In this document: positions 1 through 50,325 of the stretch, in pieces
How the letters are laid out: every line of letters starts with the position of its first letter
Position numbering within the stretch: the stretch's first letter is position 1
Assembly: GCA_002391185.1 (NCBI GenBank)
Contig: DGRY01000136.1
Location: forward strand, 1 to 58,072
Source of the DNA: Prevotella sp. UBA4376
GTDB taxonomy: Bacteria > Bacteroidota > Bacteroidia > Bacteroidales > Bacteroidaceae
DNA length: 58,072 nt
Direction: 5' to 3'
The notes under the pieces: generated by a model
Told to the model about the DNA's origin: nothing
Database searches by the model: none
What the model saw: the letters and a program-made list of their open reading frames with translations, nothing else
Position numbers and translations under genes: made by a program

Positions 1-413
1 ATTGTGCAATGGCGCATCAGCGCTACATTTTCCAAGGGAGTGAAGGGAGGTATCCTCTAAAGGAGGAGGTTAAGGTTGATGATGGCTTGAGAAAGCTTGC
101 TTTCTTAAAGCCAAACATCAAACTTGACAATGGCTCAGAATGAGACATCTCCCTTCGCTCCCATTTTCTTTCTTGCTTATAAAAAAGAATCTATTGATTA
201 CTTTTCGTCTGTCAGAAACTCTTCGATTCAACATTACCTTAGAAAAAAGATTAACAAAACGGGGCGAAATCATCTCGAAACCATCTCGGAGGCATTTAGG
301 AGGAATCTCGAAGGAATGCGCAGGCACGCTACGTTAAATAAAAATTGACAGCGCCTTTATAATAAATCAAAACTTGTAATTACAATCCACACACAATATT
401 TAAAGTTTTGCAC
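1..413. other. Intergenic region with no convincing gene
   Basis: No convincing gene is seen. A 7-bp inverted repeat (90-96/99-105) lies near the start. Positions 211-350 are one copy of a dispersed repeat whose second copy is at 43250-43391; its core is an 11-bp-period array (about 260-325). One frame is open from position 3 to a stop at 139-141 and could be the tail of an upstream gene, but it has no recognisable domain. Confidence 0.5.
211..350 (+). repeat. Dispersed intergenic repeat, copy 1, with 11-bp array
   Basis: About 140 bp resembling 43250-43391 along its whole length. Shared landmarks in order are GTCAG, TTCG.TTCAA, GATTAACAAAAC, repeated CTCGAAA blocks, CGAAGGAATGCGC and AAAATTGACA. 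The core splits into 11-bp units: CATCTCGAAAC (271), CATCTCGGAGG (282), CATTTAGGAGG (293), AATCTCGAAGG (304). Eleven is not a multiple of three, so this is not a coding repeat. Function unknown. Confidence 0.75.
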
Positions 414-2519: not shown

Positions 2520-2552
2520 CTCTATATTGCCTCTATAATCCGTCTATATCAC
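2520..2552. repeat. 11-bp array between permease and ATPase genes
   Basis: Three consecutive 11-mers: CTCTATATTGC (2520), CTCTATAATCC (2531), GTCTATATCAC (2542). They match the reverse complement of the array at 20962-21005. The array sits in the 65-bp gap between two genes that should be co-transcribed. Confidence 0.65.
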
Positions 2553-8082: not shown

Positions 8083-8175
8083 CCTTTATCATTTATCATT
8101 TAGCAATGCTCTACATTGCGTTTAGTGATATAAGAATTTCTAATATCAGTTATCGAAAGAATCATTTTTCATTTG

Positions 8176-20893: not shown

Positions 20894-20961
20894 AAATATC
20901 CCGTCGCTATTTAAGGAGGGGTGAAAAGAAGAATACAAACAAGAAGAAAATATTTGTCAAA

Positions 20962-21005
20962 CCATTATAAAGGCAATATAGACGCATTATAGAGGCATTA
21001 TAGAG
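20962..21005. repeat. 11-bp array related to the one at 2520
   Basis: Four consecutive 11-mers: CCATTATAAAG, GCAATATAGAC, GCATTATAGAG, GCATTATAGAG. The reverse complement of the last unit, CTCTATAATGC, matches the units at 2520-2552. Confidence 0.7.
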
Positions 21006-21062
21006 AAACAAGATGATAATATTCGATACATAAAATTGACAAATAGAAACAAGATAATGCTT

Positions 21063-22445: not shown

Positions 22446-22486
22446 AAAAGAGGGTGAGTCTATATTGACTCACCCTCACTTTTTTA
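22446..22486. terminator. Bidirectional terminator between esterase and hybrid regulator
   Basis: GAGGGTGAGTC (22450-22460) and GACTCACCCTC (22467-22477) pair perfectly around a six-base loop. An A run stands on one side and a T run on the other. Confidence 0.9.
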
Positions 22487-25400
22487 TTTATACTGCGTTG
22501 GCGTAACACCAAACTGCTTTTTAAACACGTAAGAGAAATGACTCTGTGTAGAAAAGCCAGTCATGTCTGATATTTCAGAAATGGTGTGATGTCCTTCTTT
22601 AATAAGTTCTGCCGCACGGTTCAACTTATATGTTCTGAAGAAATTGCTTGGAGTTTCGCCTGTAAGACCTTTTATCTTATAATACAGCTTTGTTCTTGAG
22701 ATATGAATGAGGTCGGTAATATGAGCCACATCTAACTCTGAATTAGCAAGTTCATCTTCCATAAGCTGATACAGTTCTTCCATAAACTGCTTATCCTGAT
22801 GAGAAAGAACATTTTCTACATCCTCATCTGTTGTCTTTGTTGACTGACTAAGAATATGGCGCACACGCAGACGATTATTAAGCTGTGACTTGATAAGAGC
22901 CAGCAAAACATTAGGATCAAAAGGCTTGGTTACATAGGCATCAGCACCTACATTAAGTCCTTCAACCTGATTTTCTGGTGTTATCTTAGCAGTTACAAGA
23001 ATAACAGGAATATGACAAAGCTGTATATCCTGCTTTATCTCACGGCATAGTTCATAACCTGTCTTGCCTGGCATTATAACATCCGAGAGTATGATATTAG
23101 GTTCTTCCTCGCGCATTTTAGTCAAAGCATCCTCGGCATCAAGACAAGTGATTACACGATATTGTGCAGAGAGTAATGCCTGCATATAATTGATTATCTC
23201 TGTATCGTCATCAACAACAAGAATAGTAGGACGATGATCTTTATCTGTCAGTTGCTGTTCGTTCACAGAAACCTGAACAATATTATCAACAGGAGCAACA
23301 TAGCGCTGTCCGTCGTCTATCGGGCGACACTCCTCATCAGAATACATTTCACGATTCAAAGGATAAACAAAAGCAAACTCTGAGCCTTGTCCGTCTCTAC
23401 GATTAAATGCCTTGAGATAACCATGATGCAACTCTGCCAAACGACGAGAATAATACAAGCCAATACCTGTACCCCAGTTGATTATCGCCTTTGTTTGATT
23501 ATCAAGCTGATAATAACGTTTAAAGATATTTTCCAACTGATCTTCAGGGATGCCCTTTCCTGTATCAGCAACAGCAATTTTTACATATTGTTGACAATTG
23601 TCTTCGTCATTCAGCCTCAGAATACCTTTTGCCTCATCACGAGTGATAACGTCAAGATATATATATATACTACCACCTACAGGTGTGTATTTAAGAGCAT
23701 TAGACATAAGATTGCTCACTATCTTTTCAAGTTTATCGCTATCTGTCCATGCTTGAAGGGTATCTTCCATGCCATAGCGATGAATAGTCATTCTTTTCTG
23801 TCGTGCATTGAACTCAAAATCATCACATATTGTATTCAAGGCACTCACAACATCCATTTCTGAAACATTAAGTCTAAGAGTGTCGTTCTCAAGTTTATTA
23901 AAATCCATTAACTGATTTACAAGCTTGAACATGCGCTGAACACTATGTTGAGCTATAGCAAGAAGGTGACGATTTTCCTTACCCACAGTCTCACTTTGAG
24001 CAAGTTGAGTAACAGGACCAGAAATCATTGTGAGAGGAGTTCTGAATTCATGAGCTATATTAGCAAAAAAGCTCATATTCATCTTATTAGTACGCTGTTC
24101 TTGCTCTTTTTCTTTCTCTATCTCACGAGCTTCTTCTCTTGCACGAACAAGACGCTTACGTGCTACATAAATCTGGCGAACTATTAAGCTGGCAATAAGA
24201 ACATATATTATACAAGCCCACCAAGAACGCCAGGGAGCCTGACGAACAATAACATCAACCTGTGTTTCACCAAGAGTAGTTTGACTATCACTTGCTGTTA
24301 TCTTTACCTTGAACGTATAATGACCAGCTGGCATGTTAGCATAACTTGCTACATGTGCATTGCCTGCATCAATCCAGTCCTTATCATAGCCTTCCATCTG
24401 ATAATAATAGTGCACACGTTCATACTGGCTATAATCAAGAGCACAATACGACAAACTGAAGGAGTTTTCATTATAGTCAAGAACTATACGTTTACAACTA
24501 TCAAGAGTGGTTTCTATCTCGCCATCATCACGTGGACGCACCAACAGATTATGTACCTTTAAATCCTGCAAATATAAAGGTATCAGCTTACGCATGGAAA
24601 TATCAATAGGATTGAAATAGGTAAGTCCATGAAGACCACCAAACACAAGTTGTCCATCAGGCATACGGCATGATGCTCTATCATTAAACTCATCACCTCC
24701 CAAGCCATCGGTCTTATAGAAACTGGTCATCTTGCCTGTAGATATATCAAGCTTGTTAAGTCCCTTAAGAGTAGAAATCCAGATATTTCCTTGATTATCT
24801 TCCTCAATACTACTAATATCCGAGCAAGAGATACCAGCCACATGTTCTGCTCTATTTGTCTTTGGAGTATATTTTATAAGTCCATTGCTCACTGTTCCTA
24901 TCCACACAATACCATTAGTATCTTCAAAAGCCTTAACTGGGATAAATGTACTTCGTCGAATACAAGCTTTCCTGTCTTCTGTACTGATGGTTATTTCATT
25001 AGTCTGTCTGTTGGCTGCATTCATCAGCAGCATCTTCTGATTAAAAGCAGCTATCATAATCCTCCCATTACGCAAAGGGAGAAGAGAAGGAATGAAAGTG
25101 TAGCCGTTATACACCTGACGCGGATACAACTTCTTTTCTCCTGGTGTAACACAATAAAGTGTATTAGTGAAATTAGCTATCCATATTGTTCCGTCAATAG
25201 CTTGCTGAATGTCCATAACTCCTGAAAGCAGGTAGTAGTCAACAACTCTTAGAATAGAACCATCATAGAAACATCTAACAACAGAACTACCGGTAGATAA
25301 CCAAAGATAGTTTTCACGGTCTATAAGCATGTGAGCATATCCTTGATTCTTCTCTATCTCAGAAAGTCCCATAACATCAATCTGTTTCACGGAAGCTGGC

Positions 25401-26542
25401 GAAAGTGTTACTGCATAAATTCCTTTAGTAGGAACAGAAGCCCATAGCACTCCCCGCTTATCAACGACAACAGCAGAAACTGAATTGTTTCCTATAGCAC
25501 GATTGATGCTACGATTGTAATTAAATCTCTCTTCGTAATAGTATTCCGCTTCTATACCTTTGTCTGATGTTCCCATCCACAAATTCTTGTGTGAATCATA
25601 CAACAGCACAGAAACGGATCCCGAAGGCATCTCGAAGGGAAACTGACCATCAGATTGCCGTATCACGCTATTGTCTGAAGGCCGATAAAGAAACCCTCCA
25701 TTACGATCGGTAGCAATAAGCTGCTCACCATTTTCCATGGTGGTAACAGCATTTATAATTCCTCCATTTTCTGTTATACCCTTCAGTAACGCTTCGTTAA
25801 TAGTCGAAAACTGATTATTATGCGTATTATAGGCAAGAAGGTGTCCATAACCCGAAAGAATGATGGTTCCGTCGTTGTTCAGATGCGAGAAGAAATAATA
25901 ACCTGCAAGCTGTATCGTTTTTTTAAGCTTAAAATCGTTACCACTATATTTGCATATATAACTTGCACCAACCGACCAAATATCACCCATTTCATCGAGA
26001 AAAACATTCCCTGTAAACTGATTTTTCTTATCAAGGTTCGAAATAACTATCTTAAATTGCTTATCTGCTTCATCATACAACAGCAACTCATTGTTATTGT
26101 AGATAAAAACACGTCCGTTACGGTCTTCAAGAAACTTCAAACAGTTCTTGCTTCCCTTAGGAATAGAAACACGCTGAAACTGGTCGTTAGCCATATAAAG
26201 ACAGGGACCATTAATCGTTCCAACCCACAAACGATCCTTACTGTCAACAAACAGAGACTTTATCTGATTATCCTGCAAACCCTCAGAATCATCTGTACAG
26301 AAATACTGATGATACTCATGACCATCATAACGGTTAAGACCTCTGAAAGTACCTATCCAAATGTAACCACGGCTATCCTCCACCATAGCTGTTACATGCT
26401 TATTTGACAATTCATTAGAGATAACAAGAGAGTTCTCTGCATCTTTATCCTTTGCTGGTTTTTGATTCTCATGCGAACATGACACTACAAGAGTCAACAA
26501 CACTAACAACGGGATATGTTTTACATGTTTCGATATTTGCAT
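22484..26542 (-). CDS. Hybrid two-component system (HTCS) regulator of the polysaccharide utilisation locus
   Basis: 1352 residues, the usual HTCS size. An N-terminal signal or lipobox-like segment (LVVSCS) leads into a periplasmic two-propeller sensor made of Reg_prop repeats (VTAMVEDSRGYIWIGT and many WIGT/LWVGT blades). Then come a Y_Y_Y domain (about 690-765), one membrane span (about 775-800) and a HisKA domain with His831 in HEFRTP. HATPase follows, then a receiver with phosphoacceptor Asp1154 in LSDVIMPGK and a C-terminal AraC-type HTH (about 1250-1352, ISEISDMTGFSTQSHFSYVFKKQFG). HTCS proteins bind an oligosaccharide breakdown product in the periplasm and switch on the adjacent PUL. 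It is divergent from SusC, with a shared control region of about 265 bp. Confidence 0.96.
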   Translation of the reverse strand: MQISKHVKHIPLLVLLTLVVSCSHENQKPAKDKDAENSLVISNELSNKHVTAMVEDSRGYIWIGTFRGLNRYDGHEYHQYFCTDDSEGLQDNQIKSLFVDSKDRLWVGTINGPCLYMANDQFQRVSIPKGSKNCLKFLEDRNGRVFIYNNNELLLYDEADKQFKIVISNLDKKNQFTGNVFLDEMGDIWSVGASYICKYSGNDFKLKKTIQLAGYYFFSHLNNDGTIILSGYGHLLAYNTHNNQFSTINEALLKGITENGGIINAVTTMENGEQLIATDRNGGFLYRPSDNSVIRQSDGQFPFEMPSGSVSVLLYDSHKNLWMGTSDKGIEAEYYYEERFNYNRSINRAIGNNSVSAVVVDKRGVLWASVPTKGIYAVTLSPASVKQIDVMGLSEIEKNQGYAHMLIDRENYLWLSTGSSVVRCFYDGSILRVVDYYLLSGVMDIQQAIDGTIWIANFTNTLYCVTPGEKKLYPRQVYNGYTFIPSLLPLRNGRIMIAAFNQKMLLMNAANRQTNEITISTEDRKACIRRSTFIPVKAFEDTNGIVWIGTVSNGLIKYTPKTNRAEHVAGISCSDISSIEEDNQGNIWISTLKGLNKLDISTGKMTSFYKTDGLGGDEFNDRASCRMPDGQLVFGGLHGLTYFNPIDISMRKLIPLYLQDLKVHNLLVRPRDDGEIETTLDSCKRIVLDYNENSFSLSYCALDYSQYERVHYYYQMEGYDKDWIDAGNAHVASYANMPAGHYTFKVKITASDSQTTLGETQVDVIVRQAPWRSWWACIIYVLIASLIVRQIYVARKRLVRAREEAREIEKEKEQEQRTNKMNMSFFANIAHEFRTPLTMISGPVTQLAQSETVGKENRHLLAIAQHSVQRMFKLVNQLMDFNKLENDTLRLNVSEMDVVSALNTICDDFEFNARQKRMTIHRYGMEDTLQAWTDSDKLEKIVSNLMSNALKYTPVGGSIYIYLDVITRDEAKGILRLNDEDNCQQYVKIAVADTGKGIPEDQLENIFKRYYQLDNQTKAIINWGTGIGLYYSRRLAELHHGYLKAFNRRDGQGSEFAFVYPLNREMYSDEECRPIDDGQRYVAPVDNIVQVSVNEQQLTDKDHRPTILVVDDDTEIINYMQALLSAQYRVITCLDAEDALTKMREEEPNIILSDVIMPGKTGYELCREIKQDIQLCHIPVILVTAKITPENQVEGLNVGADAYVTKPFDPNVLLALIKSQLNNRLRVRHILSQSTKTTDEDVENVLSHQDKQFMEELYQLMEDELANSELDVAHITDLIHISRTKLYYKIKGLTGETPSNFFRTYKLNRAAELIKEGHHTISEISDMTGFSTQSHFSYVFKKQFGVTPTQYK

Positions 26543-39514: not shown

Positions 39515-39743
39515 CATAAAAACGAAAGCAGAACAAAATAAACTTGTTTATTTTTTATGCTGAGTGCATTGTAACTTATTTAAAAGTAGAAAAAAAATAT
39601 AACGGGAGATAATTATATCACAACTTTTTACACTAAGCGTTCTGTTCAAATCAAGTATAACTAACATAGTATCAACAAGAAAGCCGTAAAAAAGAATATT
39701 AAATGCAACGTCTCACCCTCCCTTCACTCCCGCATCATTCAGG

Positions 39744-39841
39744 TATCACTCTCGCCTTAGACTCGCTCTTGCCCGAGGCTATACCGAAAGTGATCCGAGA
39801 GTGATAGGAGAGTGATCCGAAAGTGATCCGAGCCTAAGCCG
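39744..39841. repeat. 11-bp-period array with an inverted left arm
   Basis: Six consecutive 11-mers: AGGCTATACCG (39776), AAAGTGATCCG, AGAGTGATAGG, AGAGTGATCCG, AAAGTGATCCG, AGCCTAAGCCG (ends 39841). To the left TATCACTCTCG (39744-39754) is the exact reverse complement of 39796-39806, and CCTTAGACTCG resembles the reverse complement of the last unit, so the array can fold on itself. Confidence 0.8.
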
Positions 39842-39994
39842 AGAAATAACACAAGATAGATTAATTTGCAAAGACCTGTGTTGAGATTTAGAAGAAAAAT
39901 ATAAAAAAAGAATACAACGAAATACAAACAGATTCTTTATCATTTAGCGTTTATCATTTAGCGTAAAGCGCATAGAGATGTTTTCTTGGTTTTT

Positions 39995-40116: not shown

Positions 40117-40178
40117 GGTTTTATAGGTTTTCTTTTTGACAAATGATTTTACTAACGATCCACAAATCCGCCCAACTC

Positions 40179-40233
40179 TTAGGAATCATCCTAAAGGAAT
40201 CCTAAGAGCATCCTAAAGGAATCTCCATTCTAT
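40179..40233. repeat. 11-bp-period array, CCTAAAGGAAT type
   Basis: Consecutive 11-mers TTAGGAATCAT, CCTAAAGGAAT, CCTAAGAGCAT, CCTAAAGGAAT, CTCCATTCTAT (40179-40233). The second and fourth are identical. Confidence 0.7.
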
Positions 40234-40353
40234 CATTCCCGAAAAAGCTAGCAGAAGCATCATATATGCTTAAGCATTTTATTTGTGTCAGTTCTCCCCT
40301 CCCCACGGAGGGGTCGGGGGAGGTTTTATTTTTTCTTTCTTACTTTTTTTTAT

Positions 40354-43214: not shown

Positions 43215-43625
43215 GCGTTTGCACCAGCTACACCGACAGCAAACGCACGGTCAGCGACTTTCGGTTCAATACTCCATTGAAACAGAAAAAGATTAACAAA
43301 ACAGGGTGAAATCGTCTCGAAATCGTCTCGAAGGGCTACCGAAGGCATATCGAAGGAATGCGCGGACGCGCTCCGCTAAATGAAAATTGACAAATGATAA
43401 ATGATAAAGACTGCCTATCACATCCCAAGGCGCTTCGCTATTATCTCCTTCGCTCATTCAGATGCACCAACTTCGTTGACAGCATCTGCTCAGTCGATGA
43501 CCTTCGGTTGAAGATTGAAGATTAGTCGGCTACGCCGATATAATATTTAAATCTTTCATTATTTACTTCCTTAGCCTTTATGTTTGCACCTGCTGCGCAG
43601 ACAGCAAACGTTCAGTCAGTGGCCG
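43215..43625. repeat. Family of three REP-like hairpins
   Basis: Stems GCGTTTGC/GCAAACGC (43215-43246), CAGATGC/GCATCTG (43459-43488) and GTTTGC/GCAAAC (43582-43609) all close a 16-base loop of pattern ACC..CT.C...GACA. They are followed by a conserved tail (CAGTC..TG.C...GGTT). The middle copy has changed bases on both stem sides, keeping the pairing. Confidence 0.7.
43250..43391 (+). repeat. Dispersed intergenic repeat, copy 2, with 11-bp array
   Basis: Matches 211-350. Its core consists of 11-mers AATCGTCTCGA (43310), AATCGTCTCGA (43321), AGGGCTACCGA, AGGCATATCGA, AGGAATGCGCG (ends 43364). It starts inside the tail of the first REP-like hairpin unit. Confidence 0.75.
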
Positions 43626-47632: not shown

Positions 47633-50197
47633 ATGAACTTAAAATCAACATTGGTCATTGGCCTGTGCTCTGTTGGACTGGTGCTTGGAGCCTCAGCCAG
47701 CAGTATTGTCATTTCTCAGTATCAAGACGACAACACCAAGAAAAAAGAGGTGAGTCAGAAGGATGAGAAGAAAGAGACTAAAGACAAAAAAGACGAGAAA
47801 AAAGATTCCAAGAAAAAGAAGGAAGAAAAGAAAAACGAGTATGACGAACTGCTGAAGAAAGGTGGAACCGAGAAAAAGGGCCTTTTTACCGTGCGCCATA
47901 TTGAAGACAAATGGTATTTTGAAATACCAGATTCTCTCTTGGGAAGATACATTCTCTCTGTGACACGCTTTACAAGTGTTCCCCAAGGTATGGGTAAATT
48001 CTCTGGCGAAGAGGTTAACGAAAATACCATATATTTTGAGAAACGCGATGAGAAAACAATGCTCATGCGCGCCTATGTGCTCACACAGACAGCTCCAGAG
48101 GATTCTAAGATTGAGAAAACTCTGAAAGCCTCTACAACCGACCCTATTGTTTCGAGTTTCAAGATCATCGGCAAAAACAAGGATAAGCACATGAACCTCA
48201 TTGAGGTTACAAACCTCTTCATGAAGGACAACGACATTGTGGGTATTCCTAAATCGTCAAACAGCCAATACAGCATTGGTGGTCAGCAAACCGACCGCAC
48301 ATTTATCGACACAATGAAGGTGTTCCCTATCAACATCGAAATTGCATCTACACGCACTTACTCTGCTGCATCAGGAAGTGCAGGTGGTAATATACCAAGA
48401 ATAGGCAGATCAACCCCAAGAGCTGTTCGCACAGGAAGCATCACTTTGGGTTTGAACACTTCTATGGTACTTTTACCTAAAGAGCCAATGCGTAAACGAC
48501 TATGGGACGAGCGTGTGGGATATTTCACCACAAATATCACCTATTTCAACGATGACCAGCACAGAACACAACGCGAACATATTGCTGCCCGCTATCGTCT
48601 TGTGCCAAAAGATAAGAAAGCCTACGCCAAAGGCAAACTCGTTGAACCAGAGAAGCAGATCGTTTATTATATTGACCCAGCAACACCAAAAAAATGGGTG
48701 CCTTATCTAATTCAGGGTATCAACGACTGGAACGTAGCTTTTGAAGCTGCAGGTTTCAAAAACGCTATCGTGGGTAAGGAATGGCCCAAGAACGATAAAA
48801 ACATGAGTGTTGACGATGCTCGTTATTGTGTGCTTCGTTACCTTCCTGCCGAGATAGAGAATGCCTATGGCCCACATATCATTGACCCACGCTCAGGAGA
48901 GATTATCGAGAGCCATATCTGCTGGTATCACAATGTGATGAACCTGCTCACAAAATGGTATATGACCCAATGTGGTCCACTTGACAAACGTGCACAGAGC
49001 ATGAAACTTGATGATGAACTGATGGGACAACTAATACGCTTCGTTAGCTCACACGAGGTGGGACACACTCTCGGTTTGCGTCACAATATGGGTGCAAGCC
49101 ATGCCACACCAGTAGAGAAACTTCGTGACAAGGCTTGGGTTGAGAAACATGGGCACACCGTTTCTATCATGGACTATGCACGTTTCAACTATGTAGCACA
49201 GCCAGAAGACAACATATCACCCAAGGGATTGTTCCCACGCATCAACGACTACGACAAATGGGCTATTAAGTGGGGCTACCAGTATCGCCCTGAATTTAAG
49301 GACGAGATTGCCGAGAAAGAAGGTCTTATGACTGAGACAACAAAGATTCTTGCTGATAATCCTCGTCTTTGGTTTGGTGGTGAAGGACGAGACGAAGACC
49401 CACGTGCTCAGACAGAAGACCTTGGTGACGACAATGTTAAGGCAAGCGAATATGGTATCAAGAACCTTAAGCGTGTGATGGCAAACCTTCCAAAGTGGAC
49501 TCATCAAGACAACTACCAGTATGAAGACATGGAAGAAATGCACCAGAGTGTGCGCGACCAGTATCGTCGTTACTTGAACCACGTGCTAAAGAACTTAGGT
49601 GGTCACTACATCAATAACATGCCTGGCAAGAATGCCATCGAGATAGCTCCTGCCTACAAGCAGAAAGAAGTGTTAGGCTATCTAGACCGTCATGTCTTTG
49701 AAGCACCTATGTGGCTCTATCCTGACAATGTAATCTCTAAGATTGGTTTCGATGTAATTAAGGATATTAAGAGTCGTCAAGAAAATACAATCGCAAGATG
49801 CCTTCAAGCCAATCTGCTTACAACAATCTATAACGATTCGTTCCTATCAGCCTCAGCCCTAAAGCTCGATGACTATATGAACAGTCTCTTTGCTATTGTA
49901 TGGAAGCCGTTGAACAACAAGAAAGAAATGCTTAATAACACCCGACGTTCACTCGAACGCAGCTATGTTGAGCAGCTCGACAAGCTTATTAATCCAGATG
50001 AGAAGAGTGCTAAACTTATGGGTGATTTCAACAATAGTGACGCCCTACTCTATGTGCTTCAGCATCTTGACAAGGTAGAGAACTATGTGAAGTCACAGGC
50101 TGCAACAACAGCTTCAGGCATAAACAAACAGCATTTTCAGGACCTGCAGAGAAGAATAAAGCTCATTAGAGATAAGCAGGTAAAAGTAAAAGAGTAA
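47633..50197 (+). CDS. Exported zinc metalloprotease, DUF5117/DUF4953 family
   Basis: 854 residues. An N-terminal signal-like span (about 5-28) is followed by an extremely charged Lys/Glu/Asp tract (about 32-72) and then a DUF5118/5117-like beta domain (FTVRHIEDKWYFEIPDSLLGRYIL). The DUF4953 catalytic domain has the extended metzincin-type motif HEVGHTLGLRH at His474, His478 and His484, and a downstream MDYARFNYV like a Met-turn (SIMDYA). The family is widespread in Bacteroidetes; substrates are unknown. The charged tract probably acts as a tether in the envelope. Single gene. Confidence 0.87.
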   Translation: MNLKSTLVIGLCSVGLVLGASASSIVISQYQDDNTKKKEVSQKDEKKETKDKKDEKKDSKKKKEEKKNEYDELLKKGGTEKKGLFTVRHIEDKWYFEIPDSLLGRYILSVTRFTSVPQGMGKFSGEEVNENTIYFEKRDEKTMLMRAYVLTQTAPEDSKIEKTLKASTTDPIVSSFKIIGKNKDKHMNLIEVTNLFMKDNDIVGIPKSSNSQYSIGGQQTDRTFIDTMKVFPINIEIASTRTYSAASGSAGGNIPRIGRSTPRAVRTGSITLGLNTSMVLLPKEPMRKRLWDERVGYFTTNITYFNDDQHRTQREHIAARYRLVPKDKKAYAKGKLVEPEKQIVYYIDPATPKKWVPYLIQGINDWNVAFEAAGFKNAIVGKEWPKNDKNMSVDDARYCVLRYLPAEIENAYGPHIIDPRSGEIIESHICWYHNVMNLLTKWYMTQCGPLDKRAQSMKLDDELMGQLIRFVSSHEVGHTLGLRHNMGASHATPVEKLRDKAWVEKHGHTVSIMDYARFNYVAQPEDNISPKGLFPRINDYDKWAIKWGYQYRPEFKDEIAEKEGLMTETTKILADNPRLWFGGEGRDEDPRAQTEDLGDDNVKASEYGIKNLKRVMANLPKWTHQDNYQYEDMEEMHQSVRDQYRRYLNHVLKNLGGHYINNMPGKNAIEIAPAYKQKEVLGYLDRHVFEAPMWLYPDNVISKIGFDVIKDIKSRQENTIARCLQANLLTTIYNDSFLSASALKLDDYMNSLFAIVWKPLNNKKEMLNNTRRSLERSYVEQLDKLINPDEKSAKLMGDFNNSDALLYVLQHLDKVENYVKSQAATTASGINKQHFQDLQRRIKLIRDKQVKVKE

Positions 50198-50229: not shown

Positions 50230-50242
50230 AGGGCTAACAGAA

Positions 50243-50317
50243 AACTCGGAATAATCAGAATACTCAGAATAATCGGAAAACTCGGAAAACTCGGAATAAT
50301 CGGATAACTCCGATACT
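50243..50317. repeat. Degenerate 9-bp tandem array
   Basis: About eight units of the type (A)ATCGGAAA / ACTCGGAAT. Successive nonamers are AATCAGAAT, ACTCAGAAT, AATCGGAAA, ACTCGGAAA, ACTCGGAAT, AATCGGATA, ACTCCGATA. It differs in period from the 11-bp arrays of this window. Confidence 0.7.
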
Positions 50318-50325
50318 CAACCAGC

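Follow-up and report, generated by a model that had tools for sequence, protein, structure and literature searches.

Most of the 11-bp tandem arrays of Prevotella sp. UBA4376 belong to a small set of dispersed composite modules, and the reading we tentatively prefer is that these spread through ectopic copying of short patches, with native cores as seeds. Whole modules recurred at separate loci and obeyed rules of phase and order, and in four genes array sequence occupied the place of native codons. The copying step itself, its seeding on native cores, and a period and register inherited from a donor array are what we infer from these patterns.

Unit families and their grammar

The window, i.e., the whole stretch of 58,072 nucleotides that was analysed, is contig C133 of an assembly (G000) of 2.37 Mb in 204 contigs, with completeness given as 71%. 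From position 8137 on, most of the window aligned in the same order with the sister species, an uncultured Prevotella sp. (Sheep_1_mag_39; records CAJOCR, G040), the final 8 kb being in inverted orientation; identity across long aligned stretches was ~76-97%, mostly 80-90%. The original observation that six spacer sites parse into 11-mers was borne out, as Tandem Repeats Finder gave period 11 at all six (265-288/272-317, 2520-2549, 20963-21005, 39784-39831, 40188-40223, and 43308-43332/43329-43356); weaker period-11 rows were found at 2725 and 25254. In most arrays, a unit consisted of a T, a six-base core, and a four-base tail. The cores were A (CTCGAA), B (TATAGA), C (CCTAAA), and D (TTAGGA), of which D with its leading T (TTTAGGA) is the reverse complement of TCCTAAA (C), and tails such as GGCA, CGCA, and GGAA were common to several cores. 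The window contained the following features:

265..322, plus strand: site 1, 11-bp array of four full units plus an incomplete one (TCTCGAAACCA TCTCGGAGGCA TTTAGGAGGAA TCTCGAAGGAA), with mixed A/D cores
2520..2552, minus strand: site 2, B-family array (ATATAGACGGA TTATAGAGGCA ATATAGAG, read on the minus strand)
20963..21007, plus strand: site 3, B-family array of 4 units, with 55 bp identical in the sister species
25618..25639, plus strand: coding site, two A-type units within the minus-strand ORF 22484-26542, the peptide there being FEMPSGS, with no difference in the sister species
39744..39843, plus strand: site 4, AGTGATCCGAA-type units, the left arm being inverted
40176..40223, plus strand: site 5, C-family array (TCCTAAAGGAA TCCTAAGAGCA TCCTAAAGGAA), with the left part palindromic
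43308..43361, plus strand: site 6, A-family array (TCTCGAAATCG TCTCGAAGGGC TACCGAAGGCA TATCGAAGGAA), sharing its larger repeat with 265-322

The inverted arm at site 4 was exact, with 39744-39754 (TATCACTCTCG) being the reverse complement of 39796-39806, and a second copy of this array was present in G000:C128 (L004:1058-1171). Sites 260-325 and 43310-43364 were two copies of one larger dispersed repeat, whose flank was common to 265..322, 43290-43375, and L037. The sister counterpart of the 40176 array (TCCTAAACGAA TCCTAAGAGCA TCCTAAAGGAA TCTCGAAGG) was located in the same spacer, within an insert lacking homology. The arrays had been described as intergenic, which holds for the six sites but not for the two A-type units in coding sequence at 25618-25639. 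The window also harbored a 9-bp/27-bp tandem repeat (CAGAATAATCGGAATAATCAGAATACT) at 50238-50319, downstream of ORF 47633-50197.

The array catalogue was drawn from 507 kb of the own genome and 393 kb of the sister, with many stretches chosen for carrying arrays, and comprised 44 own and 37 sister arrays that were mostly intergenic (35 and 33, respectively). Units had been regarded as specific to each locus; this applied to a minority with unrelated units (39744 and the hairpin types), whereas most sites belonged to families A to D, which recurred at dozens of loci. Family A had 37 matches in the own genome at one mismatch or fewer and family B had 25 (reversed-pattern control, 0), and family A had 118 matches in the sister at two mismatches or fewer (reversed-pattern control, 9). 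Three units were the commonest run length for A (24/43) and C (12/17), and B runs had three units in 7/22 cases and four in 9/22.

Core distances in own and sister DNA, counted over pairs that are not independent when they come from one array, were in phase (a multiple of 11) in 21/23 B-to-A, 36/40 C-to-A, and 24/32 D-to-A pairs. Out-of-phase pairs dominated for A-B (0/4 in phase), B-D (3/11), D-B (1/10), C-D (0/6), and B-C (1/3), and D-A pairs in other genomes were in phase in 0/7 cases. The A run (TCTCGAA) came last in 12 of the 15 mixed arrays containing A (C-A 7, D-A 3, and B-A 2; one orthologous pair was entered twice), the remainder being A-D-A (2) and A-D (1), with no A-B or A-C. The first tail position also depended on rank within the run: in family A, it was C in 17/43 first units vs. 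7/73 later units (p = 0.0002), a bias that was weaker for family B (p = 0.014) and not significant for family C (p = 0.07); the D runs of this tally partly re-count C runs from the opposite strand. The composite TCTCGAACGCA-TCTAAGACTCA-TCTCGAAGGAA-TCTCGAAGG was identical at three sister loci (L180, L189, and L204), with flanks that look unrelated by eye.

A single motif of the uptake or Chi kind was considered and not adopted; TCTCGAAGG was mostly array-bound (57 of 71 copies in own and sister stretches), and single copies were mildly in excess (14 vs. 5, 3, and 3 for two one-base variants and one permutation).

Period 11 against chance and its distribution

The lag-11 scan was conducted on 281,080 bases, made up of the window and 20 other stretches of its genome (19 taken by contig number and L004 because of a pattern match), including 122 intergenic pieces with 31,893 bases in total, and windows with at least 17/22 matches at lag 11 were scored as arrays. 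Thirteen intergenic lag-11 arrays were observed vs. 0 in each of 30 dinucleotide-preserving shuffles, and the expected excess over shuffled spacers is thus present in the own genome. The other peak of the same scan was lag 7 (20 intergenic arrays), and lags 14 and 22 are likely harmonics. The 57 period-11 loci of own and sister stretches formed at least eight unit clusters by single linkage, in agreement with the claim that one period is shared by unlike units. Period 22 had eight clusters in 11 loci, some of them being 11-bp arrays, and other periods from 5 to 21 had one to four; the threshold was coarser for short units, merging all 58 period-7 loci although many 7-bp units exist, so these cluster counts do not prove that period 11 is unique.

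Tandem repeats of 7 bp were abundant, for example in L024 and at 43377-43408 and 39936-39964 of the window, with units AAATGAT, AACTCCT, AACTGAT, and others. The unit AACTGAT is a rotation of TAACTGA, which is known from Beggiatoaceae, cyanobacteria, and some Bacteroidetes. Genome G009 (L045-L047) contained many 7-bp arrays, 14/23 of them AACTGTC, and no lag-11 array in 60 kb.

The arrays were dense in the own species and one sister, and the TCTCGAA family was patchy in other Bacteroidales. The lag-11 arrays were not general in the genus: seven same-genus genomes, scanned over 273,545 bases in all, yielded a single one. Stretches of G125 and G094 chosen by A matches had 3 and 1, respectively, all of the A family, and no lag-11 array was found in 13 stretches of same-order genomes. 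The A pattern was detected in 8/149 other same-genus genomes, six of them with one match (reversed control, 2/150, once each); G125 had 11 matches in a dialect of its own (TCTCGAACGGA) and G094 had 3. The B pattern was detected in 1/149, with one mismatch. The A pattern occurred in 98 stretches of a wider contig collection, and among the 80 matches listed, 33 were from digester Bacteroidales JAAYDO and 15 from the sister. Horse-gut, Mediterranea, and other Prevotella records accounted for smaller numbers, the cultured Prevotella P2-180 and P5-92 each having one coding A array in this listing; matches in unrelated phyla are probably due to chance. In JAAYDO, 23/32 A copies, of 2 to 6 units among paralogs, lay by eye in one larger dispersed repeat, and nine lay outside it. 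A phage link was rejected: the A pattern was present in 10 viral contigs and B in 0, and a handful of A matches would be expected there by chance on a rough, uncomputed estimate.

Minority unit types with period 11 included AGTGATCCGAA (39744), GTGACAGTCTG, GTTTGTTGTCC hairpin arrays, GGGGCTGCTAA, and others, and several of these loci were pairs of arrays facing each other. Facing GTGACAGTCTG arrays were part of a dispersed element (L010:593, L163:8323, L171:370, L222:8015, and L236:18886) that resembles replication-origin iterons; the gene 71 bp from one copy is one that we take to be VirE/primase-like. Long hairpins of facing 11-bp arrays (GTTTGTTGTCC / GGACAACAAAC) were present at L156:9833, L217:10800, L223:13208, and L236:18079, with units alike within a copy and unlike between copies, and a second, TATAGTTNAAG-like array stood beside at least the L217 and L223 hairpins. 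Facing 11-bp arrays of other sequence occurred at L090:6421-6909, in a record labelled Chitinophagaceae. Some A arrays (L060, L077, L087, and L191/L192) were followed by a palindrome whose arms partly compensate each other (GCATAGCAAAATT / AATTTTGCTATGC, and variants); it was duplicated in tandem in L060 and, in the sister, lay in frame within the RsmD-like gene.

Array sequence in genes and between sister species

Judged from alignments with relatives, array sequence seems to have replaced native codons without a change in length in four genes, encoding ClpB, a glycosyltransferase, SusD, and a sensor. ClpB read LLTTNSSASRIL in the own species and LLEGISKASRIL in the sister, where the array is located; 16/33 bases differed between the two in the array vs. 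a maximum of 12 among the windows lying more than 33 bp from it (1797 windows overall). The 21 ClpB relatives compared (of 30 fetched) were all of equal length, and none had the array peptide. For the GT4 glycosyltransferase, the best 120 of 7926 database proteins, compared as protein sequences, were all of equal length here and read the presumably native ALGCLLDSFRM in 115, near variants in 2, and the array-like ASRCLRDAFEM or ASGCLRDAFEM in 3. Its same-genus loci lacked the array peptide in 20/20 cases, 19 of them being of equal length and one a residue longer. The SusD alignment (45 of 656 database matches plus the query) was gap-free in 46/46 rows, with the array peptide SRTHLEGLSKDF in 5/46 and SRSYYEGLTQDF-like sequence in the others. 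The sensor gene 22484-26542 read FPFEMPSGS in own and sister; five of its six closest relatives were gap-free at the array, and three of the six read FPFxEPxFK, so this array, of only two units, is near the native sequence.

Insertion or deletion occurs as well, as indicated by the RsmD-like gene (L164), which had indels around the array and alleles up to 26 residues longer than the own one, along with shorter ones. In the A2M gene (L155), a native VREN motif adjoined the array, in a linker whose length is too variable to judge. A peptide-coding origin was rejected because B units contain stop codons and arrays occur in both orientations within genes.

In alignable orthologous intergenic arrays of own and sister, unit number and register were kept. 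In one spacer (L012/L189), the cores were switched between the two species, the array being ATATAGACGCA-TTTAGGAGGCA-TTATAAAGGAA-TTATAGAGG in the own species and TCTCGAACGCA-TCTAAGACTCA-TCTCGAAGGAA-TCTCGAAGG in the sister, with equal register and no gap in the array interior. The spacers of the two species were often too diverged to reveal an empty site.

In the proposed copying, a short piece of an existing array, single-stranded or undergoing recombination, would first anneal to a native sequence resembling a core, a step that we read from native codons in a few genes. The donor's neighbouring units would then be copied over adjacent DNA, in the manner of ectopic conversion or short-patch double illegitimate recombination, and register and period would be inherited from the donor array. 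Since any unit could pair with any core, the donor's register and period would be kept, which would yield in-phase mosaics, core switching, and the lack of terminal repeats. Any A array could have been the donor of the in-place coding arrays, and no unique donor was identifiable. In-place change could also have come about through point mutation under selection. Copying of A to D leaves period 11 in the other families unexplained, and the model does not explain how 11 bp, one helical turn, was first fixed. A bolder version, in which the arrays are a mobile sequence without ends, i.e., a self-templating 11-bp code that overwrites DNA in place from native core matches, crosses Bacteroidales genera, and keeps register, unit order, and frame even in clpB, is doubtful.

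Alternative explanations and known systems

Of the two mechanisms first offered, copying fits the data better than a binding platform, in which all units would turn the same core to one side of the DNA, a regulator or nucleoid protein would polymerise on the array, and selection would hold core and one-turn spacing while tails drift. This explanation is the nearest rival, yet we consider it unlikely. The spacing was exactly 11 in most cases and the cores followed a preferred order. Six orthologous arrays (28 units) had 9/10 of their differences in the 4-nt tail and one in the 7-nt core, and core conservation of this kind keeps a binding role alive. Adding two doubtful pairs (L010/L236, which is paralogous, and L159:14770, which is coding and probably a chance match) gave 14/23 in tails (p = 0.017); however, the count leaves out pairs with unequal gaps, including the core switch L012/L189, and the L180 pair with its two core differences. 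Furthermore, the arrays occurred in every gene arrangement and in both orientations (12, 9, 8, and 5 intergenic; 5 same and 5 opposite in coding sequence, with orthologs entered twice and some 'coding' ORFs probably spurious), they were nearly absent from same-genus genomes, and several cores per genome would require several proteins.

Miniature non-autonomous elements that a transposase moves, the array travelling along as a passenger in the way proposed for BrickBuilt, are a still less probable source. Larger dispersed repeats did hold some arrays (260 and 43310, the JAAYDO element with 23/32 copies, and the hairpin repeat duplicated beside L060), and inverted repeats were found in 10/58 flanks vs. 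4.2 expected at score 8 and in 4 vs. 0.9 at score 10. As transposon ends, these flanking repeats were rejected, the signal over the 58 flanks being weak and slightly above chance. Most of the 32 A loci shared neither flank nor ends, unsystematic inspection showed no target duplications, and coding arrays took the place of native codons, with no insertion except in the RsmD-like gene. In Porphyromonas gingivalis, the BrickBuilt MITE carries a 23-bp minisatellite and MITEPgRS carries 41-bp repeats, according to Klein (2015, PMC4596501). Both resemble the present arrays in being dispersed, intergenic, tandem, and of restricted host range in Bacteroidales, but BrickBuilt has a fixed unit together with a leader, a tail, and IS5-like terminal inverted repeats (PMC4596501), whereas the present units are of 11 bp, also lie within genes, and had no common flank or ends that could be found. 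Terminal inverted repeats of the MITE type were thus not found in these flanks.

Independent local expansion through strand slippage, biased to 11-bp steps, is improbable as a general account. Long arrays drifted along their length (e.g., L167:15355), neighbouring units were more alike than distant ones in 31/31 arrays of at least five units, a result that is partly built in, as similarity between neighbours was the detection criterion and flanking bases were included, and unrelated unit families shared period 11. Against this stand the identical composites at separate loci, tails common across cores, families mixed in phase, and the constant unit number of orthologous arrays; the variation between close relatives that marks VNTR minisatellites was not seen in aligned orthologous intergenic arrays. 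Slippage is already disfavoured for families A to D, and it could be the origin of the rarer families.

Folded as RNA, 250-330, 20950-21020, and 43290-43370 did not differ from shuffles (z = +0.4, -0.8, and +0.8, respectively), 39735-39850 (z = -2.3) and 40170-40240 (z = -2.6) folded somewhat better, and two F hairpins folded strongly (z = -7.6 and -9.1); as DNA, 39735-39850 had a z of -1.4. Structured RNA was rejected, with no Rfam match in the window and three tested arrays folding like shuffles. RNA-level or translational signals, as proposed for the likewise patchy, intergenic, short, and direct TAACTGA repeats of Beggiatoaceae, are very improbable, given no orientation bias relative to genes and three arrays that fold no better than shuffles.

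The cyanobacterial STRR repeats are short, tandem, dispersed, and intergenic like the present arrays and differ in unit length and sequence; we know of no core/tail grammar for them. Rickettsia palindromic elements are inserted palindromes that lie in frame inside genes, whereas the present arrays mostly replaced sequence without a change in length. Short-patch double illegitimate recombination, in which resident DNA is exchanged in place for short segments from elsewhere and clustered substitutions result, was reportedly described by Harms in 2016; it is a process studied in Acinetobacter and not a repeat family, and the apparent in-place replacement is the likeness. The TAACTGA heptamer is a single 7-bp unit in direct repeats that lie mostly just upstream of start codons in the main species (MacGregor, 2015, PMC4679880). 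By comparison, the present arrays have 11-bp units, several related cores, in-phase mosaics, and no bias of context or orientation; the gene-arrangement counts showed no orientation or start-codon placement of that kind. Tandem repeats of 6-11 bp are over-represented intergenically in a few prokaryotic genomes, including Methanococcus and Natrialba (PMC4060949), a genome-wide statistic that is not known to describe dispersed families, whereas the present arrays form such families. The nearest kinds on record are the TAACTGA-like short direct repeats and the minisatellite MITEs of Bacteroidales; the present arrays lack both TAACTGA-like placement and MITE ends, and we place them among dispersed short tandem repeats, as a sort of their own. 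No description of them was found in the literature on 11-bp or dispersed intergenic repeats of Prevotella and Bacteroidetes, as covered by open-access articles in PMC, with subscription journals mostly outside.

Any host function of the arrays is putative and may be nil. If they were binding platforms, they would point to an undescribed chromosome-organising protein with a spacing of one helical turn in Prevotella-like bacteria. If they spread by overwriting, as in the copying that we prefer, they would amount to a natural archive of short-patch ectopic recombination, with events that can be counted, for a gut lineage not yet in culture, and would show a short repeat colonising coding sequence without frameshift.
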